Below are positions 2,420-18,832 of a DNA stretch of 32,594 nt, piece after piece. How positions within the stretch are numbered: the first letter of the stretch is position 1; each line of letters opens with the position of its first letter. Made by a program: the position numbers and the translations under genes. The stretch comes from a virus, in IMG/VR virus record IMGVR_UViG_3300041016_001135, positions 1 to 32,594 of that record. One strand, 5' to 3'. The notes beneath the pieces are model-generated. The model made no database searches, was not told the DNA's origin, and was given only the letters and a program-made list of their open reading frames with translations.

Positions 2420-2697
2420 TGTCTGGCTTTCCTTTGGTGGTAGTAGGCTCTGCCTTTGATGCGCTGCTGCTCGAGGTAGGCTTCACGCAAGGCAGGGTCG
2501 GCATCACGCTCGGCCTTGCACTTGGCATTCCACCGCCGAGTGTACTCGGTGCACGCTGCCCGGCGCTTCTCGGTCTTGACCTTGGCAACCTTAGCCACCG
2601 TCTCGGCAGCCGCATCATCCTCGGCGCGCTTGGCCTCTACAACGGCTGTGATGCGGGCGATAGCATCAGCCCGCTGCTCTGGTGTCATCTGCTTCAT
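2416..2697 (-). CDS. small basic helical protein, 93 aa
   Basis: An almost entirely helical, Lys/Arg/Ala-rich protein (RITAVVEAKRAEDDAAAETV, ending GRAYYHQRKARQ). Its stop and start overlap the neighbours by four bases on both sides (ATGA at 2416-2419 and 2694-2697). The high positive charge suggests nucleic-acid contact. The basic helical style resembles the end of the upstream 333-codon region of the AT-hook gene, so the two may work together. Function unknown. Confidence 0.7.
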   Translation of the reverse strand: MKQMTPEQRADAIARITAVVEAKRAEDDAAAETVAKVAKVKTEKRRAACTEYTRRWNAKCKAERDADPALREAYLEQQRIKGRAYYHQRKARQ

Positions 2698-3950
2698 GCC
2701 TTGCCCTTATTGCGGCGGTTGCGCTTGTACTCGGCCTGCTTGGCTCGGCGGCGGTCTGCCTGCTCCTCGGGTGTGAGCTCAGCGACGGCAAGCCGCTGGG
2801 CCGTCATGGGGTTGATGGCTGCTCTGACCTGCATGGCCGTGTCGTGGTCTAGGTTGCCGCGCCTTTTCTCACGCTTGATGATGGCGGCCGAGCGGGTGTG
2901 AATGATGCGGCGCTCCATCCACTTGTAAAGGTAGTCGGCCTCCTCGTTAGACTTAGCCATGATGCTGGCCTCGATGTCTTGCCGGGCCTCTGCCTCGGCC
3001 TGCTCAGTGATGGTCCTGCCGACCTTGCGCTCGTAGATGCGCCAGGCGACTACCCGCTCGTGCAGGCACTTGGCGATGATTTCATGCAGGGGCGTTGCGT
3101 ATGCCTCGTCAATGGCCGGCACCAGCTGCACAGACGGCTCGAGGTTGAGCGGTGTCACTACCTTTGGCCGACCTCGCTTGTTGGTCACAACCTTGGGGGC
3201 AGGCTTGGCCATCACCTTGAGCACGACGGGGGCAGGGGCAGGCACCAGTGCACGCTCGGCCTCAAGGGCTGCCTTGGCTTTGGCGCGACGGGCTCGGCTC
3301 TGCTCACGCTTGCGCCGCAGGTCCTCCTCCTCACGCTGCGCTAGGGTCATGCCCCGCTTGGCTGCGATGGCTGCCTCACGCTTGGCTTTCAGACGGTCCT
3401 GCTCGGCTTGATGAGCAGCGGCCTTGGCTCTAACCCGCTTGGCCTTGGCGATGTTGCGCGCCTTGTCCTCCTCGGTGAGCTGGGGCAGCAGTTCTACCTC
3501 AACCTCACGCATGCGCCGCGCCTTGTCCTCAATCTCGGTCTTGCGCCGCTTCTCTTTGGCGCGCTCCATCACCTCACGCTCGGCCGAGCTCAGGCGCTCA
3601 TGGTTAGCCATGGCTTTCTGGTTCACCAGTGTGTCGTGCGTGCTCAGGCTGGTACGGCCCGGGTAAGAAGCGCGCTTCTGCCCTGGGTTGTCGATGCGCT
3701 CGAGCACGCTCTTGCACGACTCGAACTTCGACACGATGGGCGCTGTGCTGTGTGCCTGGCTGATGTCGAGCATCAGCTCCTTGCCCTCGAGCCTCGGCAC
3801 CGGCGTGTTGGCGTGCATGGGTGACAGCCAGTAGCCACGAGCTGCAACGAGCCGTCGCATGGCGATGGCCTCAAGCCTGTCTGGTTTGGCGATGTCGCCC
3901 TCATCATCAAGCGGGTTGCGCCGCACTTGCTTTGCGTTCATCAGTTCCAT
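2694..3950 (-). CDS. large charged coiled-coil protein with an AT-hook motif
   Basis: A 418-aa protein dominated by Lys/Arg/Glu-rich helices (for example AEREVMERAKEKRRKTEIED). In the second half it contains KRGRPK within TNKRGRPKVV, a textbook AT-hook core that binds the minor groove of AT-rich DNA. The start at 3950 lies 4 bases after the stop of the tiny upstream gene; an ATG at 3941 is an alternative. An open extension upstream to 4028 covers that tiny gene and is not used. A DNA-binding architectural or replication-associated role is plausible but inferred, and the only strongly AT-rich target seen in the window is in the control region near 13631-13672. Confidence 0.7.
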   Translation of the reverse strand: MELMNAKQVRRNPLDDEGDIAKPDRLEAIAMRRLVAARGYWLSPMHANTPVPRLEGKELMLDISQAHSTAPIVSKFESCKSVLERIDNPGQKRASYPGRTSLSTHDTLVNQKAMANHERLSSAEREVMERAKEKRRKTEIEDKARRMREVEVELLPQLTEEDKARNIAKAKRVRAKAAAHQAEQDRLKAKREAAIAAKRGMTLAQREEEDLRRKREQSRARRAKAKAALEAERALVPAPAPVVLKVMAKPAPKVVTNKRGRPKVVTPLNLEPSVQLVPAIDEAYATPLHEIIAKCLHERVVAWRIYERKVGRTITEQAEAEARQDIEASIMAKSNEEADYLYKWMERRIIHTRSAAIIKREKRRGNLDHDTAMQVRAAINPMTAQRLAVAELTPEEQADRRRAKQAEYKRNRRNKGKA

Positions 3951-6335: not shown

Positions 6336-6721
6336 GGTGCTACCTCGAGCGCGGCAACAAGGGCCTCGACCTCGGTGGTCTTCCAGATGCCCAGGTTGAT
6401 GGTGTGACCTGCGCTCTTGCCCTTCTGGATGCGTGCACCACCGACAGCCCAAAAGCCACTGATGTTCACCGACACGGTAGCTTCGGGGCCCCATGCCTCA
6501 CGCACCAGAGCAAGCAAGCAGCCCATGGTGGCAGGGTCGGTGAGGTCGGGCAGAGAGCCGGGCTCGGGCTCATGCGACGACAGAAGGATGCGATAGTAGC
6601 CCGTGTCACCCTCATGGCCTGCTGGCACGGCCACCTTCATGCCCGGCATCCACCGCCACCGCTTGCAGGCCACAGCGCGCTGGCCCAACTGTTCGAGAAC
6701 TTCTAACTGTTCGGTGCTCAT
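6332..6721 (-). CDS. hypothetical protein, 129 aa
   Basis: Starts with a helix (STEQLEVLEQLGQRAVACKR), followed by MPGMKVAVP, LTDPATMGCLLALVREAWG and beta-rich segments. The LVREAWGPEATV piece is typical of small unnamed phage early proteins in my experience. The start overlaps the upstream stop by four bases (ATGA, 6718-6721). No function assigned. Confidence 0.7.
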   Translation of the reverse strand: MSTEQLEVLEQLGQRAVACKRWRWMPGMKVAVPAGHEGDTGYYRILLSSHEPEPGSLPDLTDPATMGCLLALVREAWGPEATVSVNISGFWAVGGARIQKGKSAGHTINLGIWKTTEVEALVAALEVAP

Positions 6722-7038
6722 GGCTTCACCTGCTTCTTGGGTCCACGCACGCGGCGGTACTGGTCGTAGGTCTTCTGGTTGAGCTCAACCGCTGCCATCA
6801 CCAACATCGGGCTTGGCATCGACCAACCTGCCGGTGGCTCGTGCAGCCAAGACGACTCCATGATGAGCAGGTTGCACCACCATGGATGCACCGTCTCAGT
6901 CTCGCATGCAACCTTTTGGCGCTGCAGCAACAGCTGCCGGCTAATGCCGAGCAGGTCAGACAATCTGCGCTGCGTTCCGTGCAGCTGCTCGATGCGTGCC
7001 GTCAGCACATCACGAGCGTGGGGGTAGGGCTGGCTCAA
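6718..7038 (-). CDS. HTH (Cro/YdaS-like) DNA-binding protein candidate
   Basis: A 106-aa protein whose N-terminal part has a helix-turn-helix pattern: VLTARIEQLHGTQRRLSDLL then GISRQLLLQRQK, where the second piece would be the recognition helix. A Trp-rich middle (HPWWCNLLIMESSWL) and a basic tail (RRVRGPKKQVKP) follow. The start is TTG, overlapping the RecT stop by four bases (TTGA, 7035-7038); GAGGTG inside the last RecT codons gives a good Shine-Dalgarno five bases away. It is a candidate regulator of the divergent control region, but the target is not shown by the sequence. Confidence 0.6.
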   Translation of the reverse strand: MSQPYPHARDVLTARIEQLHGTQRRLSDLLGISRQLLLQRQKVACETETVHPWWCNLLIMESSWLHEPPAGWSMPSPMLVMAAVELNQKTYDQYRRVRGPKKQVKP

Positions 7039-10462: not shown

Positions 10463-13258
10463 TCAGAACGGAACATCACCACCAAAGATGTTCTCTGCCG
10501 CATCTTCGCTCGGCCACACATGCAACGCGTGCACCACCGTGCTCAAGTCGTACATGCGCACCTTGAAACCCGACACGCTAACCACTTTAGAAGTATTTGA
10601 CCCCTTGTCACCAACAAGCCAACCGCGTGAAGCCCATGTCGCTGCCACAGCACCCGGCTGGTACCCTGCCGAGCGCAGCATGTCGTTGGCCGTCGCCATC
10701 ACAAACTGCAGCTTGGGCCTGCCTGTCACCGCATCCACCGAGAAGGTCCCGATAGCATCTCGGCCGAGGGTCTTGGTCGCATCGCCATGGCCGTGCAGCT
10801 GCGCTGACCTAGACCAGCCCCATGAGATGAGCCGCTCCATCGCCTGCGTCGCCACATCGGCAGGACGGCCGGCACCGAGCATCGCTGCCCACCGCTCCTG
10901 GCACAGCCACGCAGCTGGCTTCATCTCAAGCCAACGCTCGGCCAGCTCGCCGGCAAGGTCAATCAGAGCGGCATAGGTTGACAGCCGAGACCCAATCGGG
11001 TGGCTCGGGCTCAGCTCCTCTACCGACAACGACCGAGCATGCACCAGCTCACGGTAACGAGCTCGCAGCTCTCGGCGCTCATCCTCTGTCAGCAGCGCCA
11101 CCTTCTCGGCAAACATCCGGCCGGCGTGCCCGTAGTGGTCTGACAGCGTGTCGAGGCTTTGGCTCTGGTACACCGTCAAGGCCCTGATGGCCTCGGGGGT
11201 AGGCTTTGCCATAGGCAACCGCCAAGGGCTGCCTTGAATGGTCAGGATTCGCGCTCTGGCACCACCTGCGTCGCCAAACGCCGAGATGCTCTGCTCACCC
11301 GTACTGATGACCAGCGACTCGTACCGAGACACAGCACGCACACCACCGTCGGCTTTGCCACGCATCTTGCCCTCGGCATTGCAGAGGTCGTACACCATCG
11401 GCTGCACCATCTCGGGCTTGCTCGCTCGCTGCGTCTCATCCAGCAGCAGCGGCAACCCTCGCTGCGCATTGGCTACTATCTCGAGCGCAAACTTGGTGGT
11501 GTCCCAGCTGCGCATCGTCTGCGGCGAGCCATACACCGACGCTGCCACCAGCAAAGCCTTGGTCTTGCCTCGGCTCGACTCGCAGGCGATGTCCAGGACA
11601 AACACCGGGGCCGACACCACCCGCATCAAAGGCGAGGCCAACGCCACTGCCACCACCGTCGCCATGTCGGGGTGCTGGTCCACGATGTCTCGCAGCACCA
11701 CCAGCTGCTTGGACGCTTCACCGCTCACAGTGAATGAGCCTACATGACGCGCCAGCTCAGGGTTGAGGTTCTCGAATGTCGGGCAACCAACACCGGCCTG
11801 CTTCTCGCCTATCAAGAAGCTCGGGGCAGTCCAGTCGGTGGCCCCATGCCAGCCCGTCACGCTTGCCACCATCTCCTGCGCCGCTCGCACCGTCCTAGCG
11901 AGGTACTGCGTCTCGGCCTTGCGCAGGTACAACACCACCTCACTGGCGCATGTCGAGTCCACTGGGAAACCACTGCTTGCCAGCGCCACGATGCCACGAG
12001 CATTCAGCAGCGTGCCTCGGTCCACGATGACCTGCTGCGGCTTATCGAACCGACCGAACTCACCTGCTCGAGGTGTGCACCACTTCACCACCATCGACCG
12101 AGTGCCATCTACCGCGTCAACACGAACACCTGCCACCCACAATGGCTGTGAGCTCACCAGCGTCGGCTCCTTCTTGCTGTCGGCAGGCAACCGTATCACC
12201 GCACCGCTCTTGGTGAACTCGTAGCCGTCCGGCACCCATGCCTCCTCACCAGGTGGCTTCTCGGTGCAGAGCTCCTCCTCGTAGTAGGGTGCCTCCTCGG
12301 GCAAAGGCACATCGTCTACCACCACTCGCTTGGCCTCAAGCTGCAGCTTCACCTCCGTCAACCCCTGCTCTTGGTGCAGGTCGTTGAAGTCCGTGCCCTT
12401 GCTGTCGAGGTCGTCAAACACAGGCCACCGCACCTCGCCCCTCACTGCCTCGGCCGCTTCACGCGCCTTGGTCAAGCCGGGGTTACCCTCCGTCATGCGG
12501 TCATCGTCAGCGCACAGGATGATTTGGCTACCTGGCATCATCCGACGAGCCATCTTGGCTACCGCCATCAGCTGCGTCGTGTCACCAGCTGCAAGCACCG
12601 TCCAACCTGTGGCCTCATAGACACTGATGCCTGTCGCCAACCCCTCGCAAATCGCAACCGTGTCGCTGCTGGCCTTGATGGCAAAGTAGGTGCCCACCCG
12701 TGTCGCGTTCTTCTGGTACCGCTTCTGCCATACGCCATCTTTGTCCTGCCAGATGCGCTGCATGTTCACCACACGCTGCTTGTCGTCTTTGAGCGGCACC
12801 ACCAGCGTGCCTCCGTTGCGGTACAGTCCAGGCACCGACCCGACACCCTTGTGCTCGAGGTAGCCAAACGCCACCTGCACCGGCTTTGCCTTGGCTATCT
12901 CGGCCGTCACCTCGTTGATGGCAGCCTCGGCCTTGTCCACCTTCACCTTGGCAGCCTCGGCTATCTTCTTCTTCATCGCTGCCGTTGCCTCCTCGATGCT
13001 TACCTCGGGACGCTTGTTTGCCGAGCTCGACCACTTCACATCCGGCTGACCAGCTGCAAGGTCGTTGAACACACCCACCACAACACCACTCTGGCCGGGG
13101 CCGTCGTTGAGGTGGACCACATACCAGCCGTTCTTCTTGTCGGGCTTCGACACGGTCGGCACGCGGTGGTGCTCGCCATTGGCTATCACACCGTCGGGGA
13201 ATAGGAGACCGCGCTCGGCCTCTGCGGCTTGAGCAAACAAACTCAATACATCTTGCAT
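10463..13258 (-). CDS. primase-helicase: Toprim plus DUF927-type ATPase
   Basis: Replication protein of 931 aa. The N-terminus (FAQAAEAERGLLFPDGVI, GWYVVHLNDGPG) fits the front part of phage Toprim proteins. A Lys/Ala helix follows at about 88-125. The Toprim core is about 198-255, with Glu205 in AICEGLATG and Asp251-253 in LCADDD. The C-terminal half is a DUF927-like helicase with Walker A SSRGKT at 561-566 and Walker B LPLLLDE ending at Asp607-Glu608. The protein ends GGDVPF, like an SSB C-terminal tip. The ATG at 13258 with GAGG upstream is preferred over a GTG at 13387, whose extra 43 residues do not look like the family. No DNA polymerase is encoded, so the host enzyme is probably used. 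Confidence 0.88.
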   Translation of the reverse strand: MQDVLSLFAQAAEAERGLLFPDGVIANGEHHRVPTVSKPDKKNGWYVVHLNDGPGQSGVVVGVFNDLAAGQPDVKWSSSANKRPEVSIEEATAAMKKKIAEAAKVKVDKAEAAINEVTAEIAKAKPVQVAFGYLEHKGVGSVPGLYRNGGTLVVPLKDDKQRVVNMQRIWQDKDGVWQKRYQKNATRVGTYFAIKASSDTVAICEGLATGISVYEATGWTVLAAGDTTQLMAVAKMARRMMPGSQIILCADDDRMTEGNPGLTKAREAAEAVRGEVRWPVFDDLDSKGTDFNDLHQEQGLTEVKLQLEAKRVVVDDVPLPEEAPYYEEELCTEKPPGEEAWVPDGYEFTKSGAVIRLPADSKKEPTLVSSQPLWVAGVRVDAVDGTRSMVVKWCTPRAGEFGRFDKPQQVIVDRGTLLNARGIVALASSGFPVDSTCASEVVLYLRKAETQYLARTVRAAQEMVASVTGWHGATDWTAPSFLIGEKQAGVGCPTFENLNPELARHVGSFTVSGEASKQLVVLRDIVDQHPDMATVVAVALASPLMRVVSAPVFVLDIACESSRGKTKALLVAASVYGSPQTMRSWDTTKFALEIVANAQRGLPLLLDETQRASKPEMVQPMVYDLCNAEGKMRGKADGGVRAVSRYESLVISTGEQSISAFGDAGGARARILTIQGSPWRLPMAKPTPEAIRALTVYQSQSLDTLSDHYGHAGRMFAEKVALLTEDERRELRARYRELVHARSLSVEELSPSHPIGSRLSTYAALIDLAGELAERWLEMKPAAWLCQERWAAMLGAGRPADVATQAMERLISWGWSRSAQLHGHGDATKTLGRDAIGTFSVDAVTGRPKLQFVMATANDMLRSAGYQPGAVAATWASRGWLVGDKGSNTSKVVSVSGFKVRMYDLSTVVHALHVWPSEDAAENIFGGDVPF

Positions 13259-13290
13259 GATACCTCGTGGGGGCTTGCAAAAACTAGGCA

Positions 13291-13431
13291 CCTCGGGTAT
13301 ACCGAGGCCCATCAGGTTGATGAGCCGTTGTCGCGGCTCGCTGACCCTTATGCCGCTCTGACTACCTCCTGTCAAGAGCAGCTGCACGAGGTCCTCTCAT
13401 TGCTGTCGTGGCATCAAGTGAGAGGGCCTCG
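13291..13431 (-). promoter_or_regulatory. structured 5' leader of the primase-helicase operon
   Basis: Leftward order: a 13-bp stem with one G-T pair (13419-13431 with 13387-13399, 19-base loop), a 6-bp stem GAGCCG/CGGCTC (13322-13327 with 13334-13339), and a 6-bp stem CCTCGG/CCGAGG (13291-13296 with 13302-13307, 5-base loop). The last one lies 32 bases before the primase ATG. Attenuation, mRNA protection or a small RNA are possible; no leftward T-run is visible. Confidence 0.5.
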
Positions 13432-13581: not shown

Positions 13582-13870
13582 AGCGGTAACATAGCATGTT
13601 ACTCTGATGTTACCGCTGATGTTACCGCTTATGTCTCTGTTTTGTTTATAGATAGTAGTTAGTTTTTGATACGGTAACATGAGTAACATCCAAAACAAGC
13701 ACCTATACGCGCGCGCGCGGGCACGCGCACCCGCTCAAGGAGGTCCCTCTCGATTTACACATGGTATGTCGAAAAATCGTGTTACTATGTTACCGCTCCG
13801 ATTTCGCTAGGTAGTTCAAGGGGTTGCGGCGGTTTTGCGGTAACAACCTCGATGTTACCATGTTACCGCT
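13582..13870. repeat. iteron-like cluster, 11 copies around GTTAC/GTAAC (putative origin/operator)
   Basis: Consensus ATGTTACCGCT. Copies: AGCGGTAACAT 13582-13592; ATGTTAC 13596-13602 (with the first, a 7-bp inverted repeat with a 3-base spacer); GATGTTACCGCT 13606-13617 and again 13618-13629 as an exact 12-bp tandem; GGTAACAT 13673-13680; GTAACATC 13683-13690; GTGTTAC 13779-13785; ATGTTACCGCT 13787-13797; GCGGTAACA 13837-13845; GATGTTACC 13851-13859; ATGTTACCGCT 13860-13870. An AT-rich block lies between the groups. Both orientations and mixed spacing fit binding by a dimeric initiator or repressor. Confidence 0.75.
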
Positions 13871-13887: not shown

Positions 13888-13916
13888 TTGACCTGCCAAG
13901 CCACCGGTGCCACAAT
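13888..13916 (+). promoter_or_regulatory. sigma-70-type promoter for the late operon (TTGACC-17-CACAAT)
   Basis: The -35 TTGACC (13888-13893) matches TTGACA at five of six positions, the spacer is exactly 17 bases, and the -10 CACAAT (13911-13916) matches TATAAT at four of six. The predicted start of transcription, about 6-8 bases after the -10, falls on or next to the terS ATG at 13924, so the mRNA would be leaderless or nearly so. The last GTTAC repeat ends 17 bases before the -35, placing the promoter under likely control of whatever binds the repeats. Confidence 0.6.
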
Positions 13917-13923
13917 CGGCTCT

Positions 13924-14337
13924 ATGGCACTGAGCAACGAACAGCGGGCCGAGGTCCTGCGGCAGGCATGGGAGCTGCGGCTGGGTGGGTGGTCTCACAA
14001 TGACATCGCCCGCAAGCTTGGCATCAGCCGGCAGCTGGTGACCGAGGTGCTCACGCAGCACCGCAAGGAGCTCGAGGAGTATGTCCTGGCTAATGCCACC
14101 GAGGAGCGGAAAGAGGCAGCTGCTCGGCTTGACCACCTGTTGCAGTCGGTGTGGACGCAGGCCAAGGAGGGCGACCTCAAGGCAGTGAGCACGGTGCTGT
14201 CCATCGAGGAGCGTCGGGCCAAGCTCAACGGTCTCGACGCTGTGACCAAGTCGGCTCTCGACCTGACCAGCGGTGGCGAGCCTATCAAGTTCACGGTCAC
14301 GATACCGCGTGTCATGCGTGTCGATGAGGGTGAGTAG
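13924..14337 (+). CDS. terS: terminase small subunit
   Basis: Recognises phage DNA and recruits the large subunit for packaging. The 137-aa protein has an N-terminal helix-turn-helix (SNEQRAEVLRQAWELRLGG, then NDIARKLGISRQLVTEVL), a coiled middle (ERKEAAARLDHLLQSVW) and LSIEERRAKLNGLDAVTK, typical of small terminase-like proteins encoded directly before terL. The start at 13924 removes 24 leading residues encoded in the repeat/promoter region; no Shine-Dalgarno precedes it, in line with a leaderless transcript. Its stop overlaps the terL start by one base. Confidence 0.82.
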   Translation: MALSNEQRAEVLRQAWELRLGGWSHNDIARKLGISRQLVTEVLTQHRKELEEYVLANATEERKEAAARLDHLLQSVWTQAKEGDLKAVSTVLSIEERRAKLNGLDAVTKSALDLTSGGEPIKFTVTIPRVMRVDEGE

Positions 14338-15599
14338 TGGCTAACGCCGAGGTCATCCTACCTGCCCTGTATGCGAAGCAATGGGATGCCATCAACGACC
14401 CGAGCCGCATCGTCTGCATCGAGAGCACGACCAAGAGCGGCAAGACCACCTCGGCCATCGTCTGGCAAATCAAGCAGCTGCTCGAGGGGCCATGCGACGC
14501 CGAGCACTGGTGGGTTGCGCCGGTGTACGAGCAGAGCATGATGGCCTACCGCGTCGCATGGTCCTTGCTGCGTGGCAAGCCGGGGTTTCGGCAGGCGCTG
14601 GCCGACAAGGCAATCATTGCACCAGGTGACCGCCGGTGGAGCTTCCGGTCTGCCGACAAGCCCGACAACCTCTATGGCTCTGCAGTGACCAGCGCCGTCC
14701 TGGACGAGGCCTCACGCATGAAGGATGACGCGGTGGACGCTGTGTACAGCACCACCACCAAGACACGGGGCAAGCTGCGGCTGTGTGGCAATGTGCGAGG
14801 CCGAGCCAACCGTCACTACCAGTGGTCTCGCAAGGGTGAGTCGGGCGAGCCGGGCTTTGCCTACCACCGCCTGACGGCCGACGACGCGATTGCCGGCGGG
14901 CTGTTCTCGGAGTCCGACCTCGAGATGGCACGACGCTCGCTGCCGGCGGCTGTGTTTCGAGAGCTGTACTACTGCGAGCCTGCCGACGACGGTGGCAATC
15001 CTTTTGGCATCGACTCAGTACGGGCCTGCGCTGAGCTCAACAACGGCTTGCCGACGGGCAACCCAGTGCGGGTGTGGGGTTTAGACATAGCCCGCAAGCG
15101 CGACTACGCGGTGCTGATGGGGCTCGACAGTAACCGCCATGTGTCAGTGATGCACCGGTGGCACGGCCTGAGCTACTCCTCGCTGGTGGCCGAGGTGACG
15201 CGCATCGTTGGTGCCGGCAGCAAGTCGTGCCTGTTCTACGATGCGACGGGCGTTGGTGACGCGGTTGGCGAGCAGCTGGTGTCGTCCAGGCTGTGGTGCG
15301 AAGCGTTCATCTTCAGTTCTGCTAGCAAGCAAGGATTGATGGAGGGGCTTGCACTGGCTCTGCAACAAGGTAGAACGAGCGTGCTCGACGGCCCGCACCG
15401 CGCTGAGCTCGAAGCGTTCGAGTATGATGTAAAGCAGGGCCGAGTAGTGTATGGCGCGCCGAGCGGTGTGCACGACGACACGGTGTGTGCTCACGCTTTG
15501 GCGTGGTACGGTGCCGAGCGTATGGGAATAACAGCGCAAACACGGCGTGCCTACATGGGCAGCGCGGTGGCAACCACGAACAGAGGCACGACATGGTAA
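14337..15599 (+). CDS. terL: terminase large subunit (packaging ATPase/nuclease)
   Basis: Motor and nuclease for DNA packaging at the portal. The N-terminal ATPase has Walker A STTKSGKT (residues 30-37) and Walker B SAVLDEAS (Asp123-Glu124). The C-terminal RNase H-like nuclease has Asp250 in GLDIARKRDYAV, Asp302 in FYDATGVGDAV and Asp380/381 in GVHDDTVCAHAL. The 420 aa is at the short end for the family but has all core motifs. The start is GTG, sharing one base with the terS stop. The end overlaps the portal start by 7 bases. Confidence 0.93.
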   Translation: MANAEVILPALYAKQWDAINDPSRIVCIESTTKSGKTTSAIVWQIKQLLEGPCDAEHWWVAPVYEQSMMAYRVAWSLLRGKPGFRQALADKAIIAPGDRRWSFRSADKPDNLYGSAVTSAVLDEASRMKDDAVDAVYSTTTKTRGKLRLCGNVRGRANRHYQWSRKGESGEPGFAYHRLTADDAIAGGLFSESDLEMARRSLPAAVFRELYYCEPADDGGNPFGIDSVRACAELNNGLPTGNPVRVWGLDIARKRDYAVLMGLDSNRHVSVMHRWHGLSYSSLVAEVTRIVGAGSKSCLFYDATGVGDAVGEQLVSSRLWCEAFIFSSASKQGLMEGLALALQQGRTSVLDGPHRAELEAFEYDVKQGRVVYGAPSGVHDDTVCAHALAWYGAERMGITAQTRRAYMGSAVATTNRGTTW

Positions 15600-18500
15600 A
15601 GCCGGTACTGGCTAACGGTGTGATTCCGATGACGGCAGCGCAGGCAAGCGCGCGCGTCAACATGTCTGGCGCTCGTAACGCTCGAGCTGGTCTGCCTGAT
15701 GCCGACCCGAATCTGACATTCCTGCCTACCGACCGCCGAGGAGTAGGCGGCCTGCCGGGCAAGTATGCCGAGATGATGCAGACGCATGTGGGCATTGCAT
15801 CGGCCGTGTACTGGGCAATCAACGAGGGCTCGGCTCTGCCCAAGGAGGTGGTGTGGACGCACCATCGAGACCCGGGCACCGAGGAGCTGGCGTTCATGGA
15901 CCTGTGCCGGGCTGCGACCATCGAGGACGCGGTCGTGTACGAGGGGATGATTGAGGGCGGCTCTGCGCTGTGGTCATACCCTTTGCTCGACACTTTCATG
16001 GGGTTTGGCCTCATGTTTCCTCGTCGGCTCAACGACACGCAGATTGAGTGGTACCCAGTCGCGCACAATGCGGTGATGCTGTGGCGTCCTGACGGTCACC
16101 TTTTTGGCGGCGCTCGGTTCTCGACGCCCAACGGCTATGACGACCTCGATGCGAGCCAGCTGGTGCACACGGTCTACGGCACTGCCGGCGCTATGGAGTT
16201 CGAGGGCCGCTCGATGCTGCGTGACTGCCTGCAGCCGTTCGAGCTATGGAAGCAGATTGCCATCAACGCAGGCATCTACAACCAGCTGAGCTGGGGCTTC
16301 TTGGACATCGCCTACGAGCCAAGCGTCACCGAGGATGACATCGACGCGTTCAACACCTTTGGCCAGCAGTTCTCTGACGGCCAGCGCAAGTACCTGCTGC
16401 GACCCAAGCAGGTCGATGTCGAGATGCGCTACCCGAGCGGCACTCCCCCTGCCATCATCGAGCAGCTCGAGTATTGGGACCGGCAGATTGAGAAGAAGCT
16501 CAACGCTCCTCTGGCTGGCATTGCTCAGTTCGGCTCTCGTGCGATGGCCGAGACCTTGGACGGTGCAGCAGGTCGCAAGGCCAAGGCATGGCTCAACAAT
16601 GTTTTTGACCGTGCGAGCCGGGGCATGTTTCAGTGGCTTGCCAACGATGTGGGCTACACGGGCAAGCTGCCTCGGGTGCAGGTGCAGTCGGCCGAGCTGA
16701 CGACGGGCATGGACGGTTGGGCAGCCTATGTGCAAGGTGTCCAGGCGGGTCTGCTGACTCGTGCAGCTGGTGACGAGGCATGGGCACGCAAGGTGATTGG
16801 CGCTCCTGACCTGCCGCCGCAAGAGACGGTTGAGGTGACGGCCGAGACACCGGCCCCGCTTCTGGTCGGCTCGTTGCAGATTGCGCAGCAGGTGCTTGGC
16901 ATGCTGGTGGCTACCCCTGCTAACCCGGCACCGTTGGCCCCCGAGGCAGCGGCGCTTCTGCTTGTGTCGGCAGGCATGAGCCGCACGACGGCCGATGCGA
17001 TGATTGCAGCCCAGCTGGCTATGCCAACGCCTATGGCTGTCGCTGGCGCGGCACCGGTAGCAGGCGAGGCCCCTGCGTCACCTGAGACGGCAGCAGCGGT
17101 TGTGCCTCAGGTGCAGGTGAGCAAGAACATCGAGGTACCTGCCACGATTGGCGACAGCGCGGCGTTTGCGCCTGTGCCGACGGCTGGTGCAGAGACGGCG
17201 ATGGCCGAGTCGGATGTGGACCTGCAGCCGACTGACGAGATGAGCGAGATTGCCGCTCGTGCTTTAGAGTGGCGTGCCGAGTACGGCCGAGGTGGCACCG
17301 AGGTTGGTGTGGCTCGCGCTCGTGACATCAGCGGCGGCCGCAACCTGTCACCTGATACGGTGCGCCGGATGGCCAACTACTTCAGCCGTCATGGCAGCGA
17401 CAAGGATGCATCTGGCTTCAATGACGGTGGCGAGGGCTTCCCCTCGGCAGGTCGCATTGCATGGGACTTGTGGGGCGGCGATGCTGGTGCGGCATGGGCC
17501 GAGCGCAAGGTTGCCGAGCTCGAGCGTCAAGCCGACGCTGGCGACAAGGCTGTGATACTGTCAGCGTCACTGGCCGAGCGGCCCGATGTGGTGGTGCCTG
17601 ACTCGGTGCGAGCTGCAGCTGCAGCGGCGCTTGAGGCCCACCGTTCTGTGAGCAAGGGCAAGACCTCGGACACCGAGGCTCTGCTGATTGCGCGTGACCT
17701 TGCAGCCGGCAAGCGGTTGGCATGGTCCCGGGTGATGCGCCTGGCAGAGTGGTTTAGTGCTACGCTGCCGAGGGTAGCCAGCACGAAGTCGTTTACTGAT
17801 AAGGGCGCTAGCTATCACTCGTACCAGCTGCGAGGCGGCAACGAGGCCAAGCAGTGGGTGCGCGGCCTGATGATGGCCTATGCCTCGGCAGCTCACCATC
17901 GAGCGGCCCGGCTCAACGACGGAGGCGGCTGCGGCTGCTCCGCGTGCAGTGGCGACCTTGGCGACAAGGAGGGAGAAGGGGTCCTCAGCGACAAAGAGGG
18001 AGGAGGGGTCCTCGTAGTCGGAGGCGACGGCAAGGAGTTTCTGGCACCCCGTGAGCTGCGGCCCGAGGAGCTAGTGGTCGGCTGGGTGACGATGGCCGAG
18101 TCACGCTACGACCTGGACATGCTGCTGACGATTGTGCTCGAGGCGATAGCGGCGCGTCATCGCAACGATGTGAGAGACGCACTCAAGAACGGCTGGCAGG
18201 CAGGCGAGCGAGACCGCATCTACAAGCAGTACCTGCAAGAGTACGAGGTTGCCCTAGCTAACAGCGCGACTAAGCTGCGCCAATCGGTGTTTGACGATGT
18301 GATTGACGAGGCGACCAAGTCGCTGCCTGATGCGCCTGCGTCAACGATGTCACCTGCGGAAGTGGTTGAAGCGAATGATGCTCTTGCCGGTGCAGCCAAT
18401 GCTCAGTCGGCTCGAGCTGCGGCGCTGACTCAGACGGCTGCCGAGACCATCACCAACCGGGTGCAGACCGAGATTGAGAATGCGCTGCTTGCTGGTGCTG

Positions 18501-18832
18501 ACCCTGCGTCATGGGTGAGCCGCATCACTCCCCTCGGCTTGCTGAGCTCAGCGACTGAAAGCCGCAACATGGTAGAGGCAGCGTCACGCATAGGCGCGTA
18601 TGCACAGGCCCCGACGGCCGTTGGCGCGGTGCCTACCTTCGTGGTTCGCTCGAGCATTCCCGACGGCAACCGCTGCAGCGTCTGTGCAGCTGCAGACACA
18701 GGCGAGCGTGTGAAGGTAGCCGACTTTGTGACGCCGGGTGTCGGCCTTGAGCTGCCACCGTTGCCTGACCCAAACTGCCTCGGCGGTGCTGGTCGGTGTC
18801 GGTGCGGCTGGTTCGCCATCTACAGCCGCTAG
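15593..18832 (+). CDS. portal fused to a duplicated domain and a MuF-like minor head domain
   Basis: A 1079-aa protein. Residues about 50-410 look like a Mu gp29/DUF935-type portal (KYAEMMQTHVGIASAVYWAI, EFEGRSMLRDCLQPFELWK, YWDRQIEKKLNAPLAGIAQF), the ring through which DNA enters. An Ala/Pro linker runs 411-545. Two related segments follow (about 550-645 and 668-770), the first with VGVARARDISGGRNLSPDTV and GRIAWDLWGGDAG. Residues 775-815 form a Gly/Cys patch with a 9-residue tandem repeat. Residues about 830-1079 resemble a MuF/SPP1 gp7-type head morphogenesis domain ending in a Cys motif (Cys1028, 1031, 1062, 1069, 1071). The ATG at 15593 has GAGG upstream. Portal and MuF are usually separate genes, so this is a fusion. 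Confidence 0.82.
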   Translation: MVKPVLANGVIPMTAAQASARVNMSGARNARAGLPDADPNLTFLPTDRRGVGGLPGKYAEMMQTHVGIASAVYWAINEGSALPKEVVWTHHRDPGTEELAFMDLCRAATIEDAVVYEGMIEGGSALWSYPLLDTFMGFGLMFPRRLNDTQIEWYPVAHNAVMLWRPDGHLFGGARFSTPNGYDDLDASQLVHTVYGTAGAMEFEGRSMLRDCLQPFELWKQIAINAGIYNQLSWGFLDIAYEPSVTEDDIDAFNTFGQQFSDGQRKYLLRPKQVDVEMRYPSGTPPAIIEQLEYWDRQIEKKLNAPLAGIAQFGSRAMAETLDGAAGRKAKAWLNNVFDRASRGMFQWLANDVGYTGKLPRVQVQSAELTTGMDGWAAYVQGVQAGLLTRAAGDEAWARKVIGAPDLPPQETVEVTAETPAPLLVGSLQIAQQVLGMLVATPANPAPLAPEAAALLLVSAGMSRTTADAMIAAQLAMPTPMAVAGAAPVAGEAPASPETAAAVVPQVQVSKNIEVPATIGDSAAFAPVPTAGAETAMAESDVDLQPTDEMSEIAARALEWRAEYGRGGTEVGVARARDISGGRNLSPDTVRRMANYFSRHGSDKDASGFNDGGEGFPSAGRIAWDLWGGDAGAAWAERKVAELERQADAGDKAVILSASLAERPDVVVPDSVRAAAAAALEAHRSVSKGKTSDTEALLIARDLAAGKRLAWSRVMRLAEWFSATLPRVASTKSFTDKGASYHSYQLRGGNEAKQWVRGLMMAYASAAHHRAARLNDGGGCGCSACSGDLGDKEGEGVLSDKEGGGVLVVGGDGKEFLAPRELRPEELVVGWVTMAESRYDLDMLLTIVLEAIAARHRNDVRDALKNGWQAGERDRIYKQYLQEYEVALANSATKLRQSVFDDVIDEATKSLPDAPASTMSPAEVVEANDALAGAANAQSARAAALTQTAAETITNRVQTEIENALLAGADPASWVSRITPLGLLSSATESRNMVEAASRIGAYAQAPTAVGAVPTFVVRSSIPDGNRCSVCAAADTGERVKVADFVTPGVGLELPPLPDPNCLGGAGRCRCGWFAIYSR
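17961..18014 (+). repeat. 27-bp tandem duplication inside the portal fusion gene
   Basis: Two 27-base units, 17961-17987 and 17988-18014, differ at three positions. They encode GDKEGEGVL and SDKEGGGVL, in the Gly/Cys-rich linker just before the MuF-like part. The length is a multiple of three, so the frame is kept; recent slippage in a flexible linker is the simple explanation. Confidence 0.8.

Follow-up and report, generated by a model that had tools for sequence, protein, structure and literature searches.

Our analysis indicates that the cluster of eleven short repeats at positions 13582-13870 of the window (the whole 32,594-bp stretch of viral DNA analysed here) is very probably a replication origin, the iterons of which would be bound by the phage's own Rep protein. 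What we see is most likely a design known from bacterial pathogenicity islands, here at work in ordinary phages, each lineage of which has its own docking sequence.

The repeat array and its surroundings

The core TGTTAC/GTAACA occurs 15 times in the 32,594 bp, and 11 of these copies lie within 13582-13870, which bears out the dense 11-copy cluster described in the first-pass annotation of this DNA. The same interval holds nine of the ten copies of ATGTTAC in the record and every copy of GTTACCGC (6/6) and of GTTACCGCT (5/5); the bare pentamer GTTAC is less specific, with 11 of its 31 copies in the array. As a hexamer cluster the array ranks first in the whole record (p 1e-13, against 9e-5 for the best cluster elsewhere), and when a 13-kb stretch was shuffled 12 times with its dinucleotides kept, no hexamer cluster had more than six copies, against the eleven here. 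The motif is, then, not equally frequent elsewhere.

The iterons are laid out as six plus five, in two sets ~98 bp apart. The array is on the 5′ side of rep, at a distance of 333-608 nt from the start of that gene, and lies, as had been proposed, between the leftward replication operon and the rightward TerS and TerL genes. The features are listed here in order of position (the clades are given in the next section).

10463-13258, minus strand: Rep, with a Toprim primase, a DUF927 AAA+ (MCM-like) helicase and a C-terminal winged helix; proposed iteron-binding initiator
10520-10750, minus strand: C-terminal winged-helix domain of Rep (residues ~837-913); proposed iteron reader
13290-13308, minus strand: hairpin resembling a terminator, with its T run, within the leader of rep; conserved in clade A
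13347-13375, minus strand: TTGACA-17-CATAAG, a promoter-like site of the rep operon; conserved in clade A
13582-13592, minus strand: iteron 1, ATGTTACCGCT on the minus strand
13596-13606, plus strand: iteron 2, ATGTTACTCTG
13607-13617, plus strand: iteron 3, ATGTTACCGCT
13619-13629, plus strand: iteron 4, ATGTTACCGCT
13631-13670, no strand: AT-rich block (75% A+T) between the first cluster and the first pair, inside the first set
13670-13680, minus strand: iteron 5, ATGTTACCGTA
13679-13689, minus strand: iteron 6, ATGTTACTCAT
13702-13719, plus strand: CCTATACGCGCGCGCGCG element in the ~98-bp central spacer
13779-13789, plus strand: iteron 7, GTGTTACTATG
13787-13797, plus strand: iteron 8, ATGTTACCGCT
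13836-13846, minus strand: iteron 9, TTGTTACCGCA
13852-13862, plus strand: iteron 10, ATGTTACCATG
13860-13870, plus strand: iteron 11, ATGTTACCGCT
13888-13916, plus strand: promoter-like site TTGACC-17-CACAAT, ending 7 nt ahead of the TerS ATG; clade A only
13924-14337, plus strand: TerS (small terminase-like, with an HTH); disfavoured as reader on testing
14337-15599, plus strand: TerL; query for finding relatives

Three smaller elements of the first description were also found as described: the AT-rich block at 13631-13670, the 7-bp inverted pair GTAACAT-AGC-ATGTTAC at 13586-13602, and the exact 12-bp tandem at 13606-13629, the true extent of which is 13604-13629. The central spacer between the two iteron sets, at 44% A+T, is not AT-rich. 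It contains a CTATAC-CGCG-like sequence (CTATACGCGCGCG-like, 13702-13719) which is also present in clades B and E and in locus L081, and its alternating CG is unusual.

In the leftward operon Rep is followed by RecE-like and RecT genes. TTGAC boxes resembling the rep promoter-like site occur at the same place in clades C and D, and the hairpin at 13290-13308, standing between the leftward promoter-like site and rep, could serve in attenuation of rep expression. On the rightward side the TerS promoter-like site (13888-13924) is so near the ATG that its transcript would be nearly leaderless. Following TerL is a 1115-residue protein (15485-18832) with homologues in 11/11 genomes, the sole PHROG match of which is phrog_2859, a function-unknown family.

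Recurrence of the array among phages

A search with TerL gave 34 loci in viral contigs, and a search with Rep gave four loci of the same group. In 11/11 near-complete genomes the array is at the same place and is always the top short-word cluster of the genome. Nearly all fully covered loci carry it in the same intergenic region, with a word that differs by clade (in brief TGTTACC, CTTCCCA, TGTTCCCA or GCCCCA); a motif search in related phages, suggested in the first-pass annotation, thus finds the array recurring in place with clade-specific words. Such an array is missing beside TerS in locus L030, and that of L027 lies further upstream.

Clade A (window, L011-L016): [AC]TGTTACCG
Clade B (L021, L022, L024, L028, L029; a variant in L025/L026): CCTGTTACC
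Clade C (L017, L018, L020, L043): CTTCCCA
Clade D (L031, L032, L034, L036, L040): TGTTCCCAC
Clade E and L042: GCCCCA

Spacing is largely kept within the group: 3-5 sites ~10 bp apart, then ~53 bp, a pair, ~100 bp, a second pair, ~50 bp and more sites. Gap-shuffles that matched the spacing of the window as well as the real array numbered 4 of 300 for clade B, 15 for C, 22 for D and 9 for E; in the same test of 300 shuffles the spacing of L042 gave no match to the window. The first gap holds an AT-rich block in clades A and E and in L042 (68-75%), is at ~60% in clade C, and is without a strongly AT-rich block in clades B and D, for which reasons we reject this block as a universal part of the array.

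Cumulative GC skew, put forward earlier as a check on the origin, is not diagnostic: the minimum falls near the array in 7/10 relatives, whereas clade D and L042 have theirs at about -12 to -13 kb, and divergent transcription alone could explain a minimum near the array. A DNA-level search of GenBank phages found no relatives, and two scans of bacterial genomes found no prophage or host.

Further loci came from a Rep-profile search of other phages and of GenBank phages. This gave 17 Rep loci, which do not represent 17 independent events because there are relatives among them, such as L085 and L086. At 14/17 of them (L081, L084, L085, L086, AC844P1, THSA-485A, phiRg507T2_3, FP_Epona, phiAH14b, MT835606, Jekyll, P12620-1, MT835739 and MT837305) the top-ranking hexamer cluster within the 6-13 kb analysed opens between 3 and ~190 bp beyond the rep stop, the clusters of Jekyll and MT837305 (L096 and L100) being close to shuffle level. 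Among the loci checked, a related TerL is present in L081 alone, at a distance of 4.4 kb, which makes this locus a member of the same wider phage group; without L081, about 13/16 loci have an array directly after rep. The array of vB_Pae_U10 (L093) is weak and distant from rep, and the hexamer-cluster test found no adjacent array in RHph_TM3_14A and MT835519 (L095 and L099). In L081 (2-1879, 1885-2138, 6492 onward) rep points towards the array, not away from it, and the array still touches rep.

The iteron words of these loci (GGTAACA, GGTTACA, GGTGACA, GGTGAAAC and GGGAACA) have in common with the GGTAACA of the window a GGNNAC-like core (GGNNA[CA]). The array is 3′ of rep in the unrelated phages and 5′ in the group of the window, and most of these loci have, as described for PICIs, an AT-rich spacer of ~60-120 bp separating the iteron sets, which the window's group does not. 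The spacing of FP_Epona matches that of the window (0/300 gap-shuffles as good) and that of THSA-485A does so weakly (24/300). As a universal rule over the Rep loci spacing was rejected, 8/10 loci outside the close group being not clearly better than gap-shuffled; some site positions of L081 in this test were read by eye, and its result is not relied on.

The recurrence of the array in relatives, and beside the related Rep of unrelated phages, favours one half of the earlier reading of the region as both origin and genetic switch, namely the origin. The switch half finds nothing in its favour beyond the proximity of iterons and TerS promoter-like site, which is seen in clade A only. There the -35 of that site starts 17 bp beyond the end of iteron 11, and the promoter-like site of rep is ~205 bp to the left of the array, an arrangement that would suit an extended origin reading in which iteron-bound Rep also represses or activates the flanking promoters, tying late expression to replication. 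However, clades differ widely in how far the array lies from the TerS start, and the promoter box of TerS is not conserved; we consider this extension unlikely.

Candidate readers of the array

Rep is a protein of 931 residues with a Toprim domain at residues 201-299; fold comparison of its predicted model (mean pLDDT 72) places a DnaG/T7 primase fold at residues 107-315. A Rep profile built from 12 group members matches SaPIbov1 Rep (PDB 8tch; E 1.7e-58, residues 343-910) and SCCmec Cch (PDB 5dgk; E 2.9e-26), and these matches reach into or through the C-terminal domain of Rep. The same two proteins are the best fold matches of the model, Cch with Z 28.1 (331-908) and SaPIbov1 Rep with Z 26.8 (342-916), far above the matches that follow. 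A winged-helix domain closes every full-length Rep of the group. In the model for the window it has the order strand-helix-helix-wing, and the C-terminal end gives a weak match, below the cut-off, to the 'Cch helix turn helix domain' (HTH_56). SaPI Rep recognises its iteron origin through the C-terminal domain, and the isolated C-terminal domain of Cch2 binds its repeat (both PMC7581432). On this homology, the C-terminal domain of Rep is the likely binder of the iterons. In L015 (3300017747_004125) rep is read as two separate open frames, probably because of an assembly frameshift.

The Rep domain was not named in the first-pass annotation, which had proposed as binders an HTH protein (6718-7038), an AT-hook protein (2694-3950) and TerS; our results disfavour all three, and make the C-terminal domain of Rep the likelier reader. 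The clade E genomes G014 and G015 have the array, yet gave no homologue of the AT-hook protein.

TerS would be the reader if the array were a packaging (pac) site like that of SPP1, whose TerS binds repeats adjoining the terS gene. The array does adjoin terS, and the maps of the relatives are compatible with headful packaging: exact end overlaps of 121-141 bp are present in 8/10 relatives' contigs and TerL is at differing contig positions, which together indicate a circular map, and such a map fits headful packaging. However, the motif does not follow the TerS recognition helix. The recognition helices of the window, L012 and L016 differ, yet their word is constant; the HTH region of L025 is that of L028/L029, yet its version of the word differs. 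In clades C and D, moreover, the N-terminal region of TerS shows no recognisable likeness, yet the array stays, and similar arrays occur with no TerS homologue found nearby. A pac site is, to our mind, very improbable indeed.

Phages whose TerL proteins are nearly identical have TerS proteins that differ in and around the recognition helix; in clades C and D a similar C-terminal end is joined to what appears to be a different HTH at the N-terminus. This variation (L011-L043) suggests a fast-changing or swapped packaging-site specificity. As to the genome ends, overlaps of ~120-190 bp were seen in contigs G001, G003, G008, G010, G011, G014, G015, G016 and G019, the maps of which are circular; the window itself is open, but placed on the maps of clade A relatives its two ends are no more than ~1 kb apart.

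We also weighed an operator array of a transcription regulator, in which the HTH protein (6718-7038) would read the repeats and control divergent early and late promoters. Every one of the 11 genomes encodes this protein, clade A members resemble each other in its putative recognition helix, and the last iterons adjoin the TerS promoter-like site in that clade. Against this, that promoter is not kept in other clades, and the iterons are asymmetric sites 8-12 bp apart, unlike the usual dimer operators. We found no relative of the HTH protein in the phage collection, where arrays beside rep exist, and no homologue of it or of TerS in the Rep-sharing loci checked. Its tree does not recover A+B and puts B nearer to E/L042 than to A (with weak support), though B shares the motif of A. 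The words fall into the three groups A+B, C+D and E+L042, and the Rep tree recovers these same groups with support of 0.99-1.0. Taken with these points, an operator for the HTH protein appears improbable.

Mantel correlations with motif distance (r) were 0.65 for TerL, 0.59 for the Rep AAA+ core, 0.36 for the Rep winged helix, 0.28 for the HTH protein and 0.21 for TerS, values that are confounded by phylogeny. They do not single out the Rep winged helix, because relatedness explains motif distance at least as well; the case for Rep is instead one of homology and of the recurrence of arrays beside rep, not of covariation statistics.

For an origin bound by Rep we infer a course of initiation that would run from iteron binding through hexamer assembly to DNA melting. 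Each ~11-bp iteron (core GGTAACA) would dock one Rep C-terminal winged helix, and several Rep subunits would bind across both iteron sets (6 + 5) and assemble as hexameric helicases. The DNA might melt at or beside the array, for which the AT-rich block is the obvious candidate in clade A. The Rep helicases would then load themselves onto the opened DNA, and the fused primase could lay the first primers.

We also raise, tentatively, the possibility of a family-wide code. The DUF927 Reps of phages and islands would read variants of GGNNAC; the scaffold of the group would be largely fixed (cluster, ~5 turns, pair, ~10, pair, ~5, cluster), with the iteron word drifting while the geometry is kept; and the origin of this group would also be a divergent control region, at which Rep may couple replication and late transcription.

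Comparison with known replication systems

Homologous Rep proteins with an adjacent iteron array are found in tailed phages, among them Thermoanaerobacterium phage THSA-485A, Faecalibacterium phage FP_Epona, Ruminococcus phage phiRg507T2_3 and an uncultured group. No description of such origins in phages was found in titles and abstracts, and later papers may have some. The natural series of rep-iteron pairs offers material for studying how a winged helix chooses its word, and origins could become predictable in phage genomes from the rep gene alone.

In phage P4 a single protein, alpha, has primase, helicase and origin-binding parts and acts on short asymmetric iterons at ori and at the distant crr. 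A similar working, on the same fused plan, is what we propose for Rep; unlike in P4, with its second distant site, no second array was found in the 11 near-complete genomes, each of which has one array.

SCCmec Cch (PDB 5dgk) is a homologue of the helicase part of Rep in both fold and sequence, and the C-terminal domain of Cch2 binds short direct repeats next to its gene, as proposed here for Rep. Cch2, however, has three short repeats and a separate A-family primase (PMC7581432), whereas the phage has 11 iterons and a fused Toprim primase.

The closest likeness, judged from PDB matches and papers, is to the rep-ori region of SaPI/PICI elements, which has two iteron sets beside rep, an AT-rich spacer and an origin 3′ of rep (PMC6092414). 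Shared features are a homologous DUF927 helicase with a C-terminal winged helix (SaPIbov1 Rep, PDB 8tch), a primase that is beside or fused to Rep (fused here), and two sets of short, lineage-specific iterons adjoining rep. In contrast, a PICI is a satellite that needs a helper phage for capsid and packaging, while the carrier here is a tailed phage with its own TerL and a TerS-like gene, the relatives of which have circular maps of ~31-34 kb. The origin proposed here also lies on the 5′ side of rep, between divergent operons, where PICIs have theirs on the 3′ side, and its AT-rich block is inside the first iteron set, not in the spacer between the sets. With a carrier phage that has its own terminase, the 5′ location and this placement of the AT-rich block, we therefore regard the array as a variant of the island design and not as a PICI origin.
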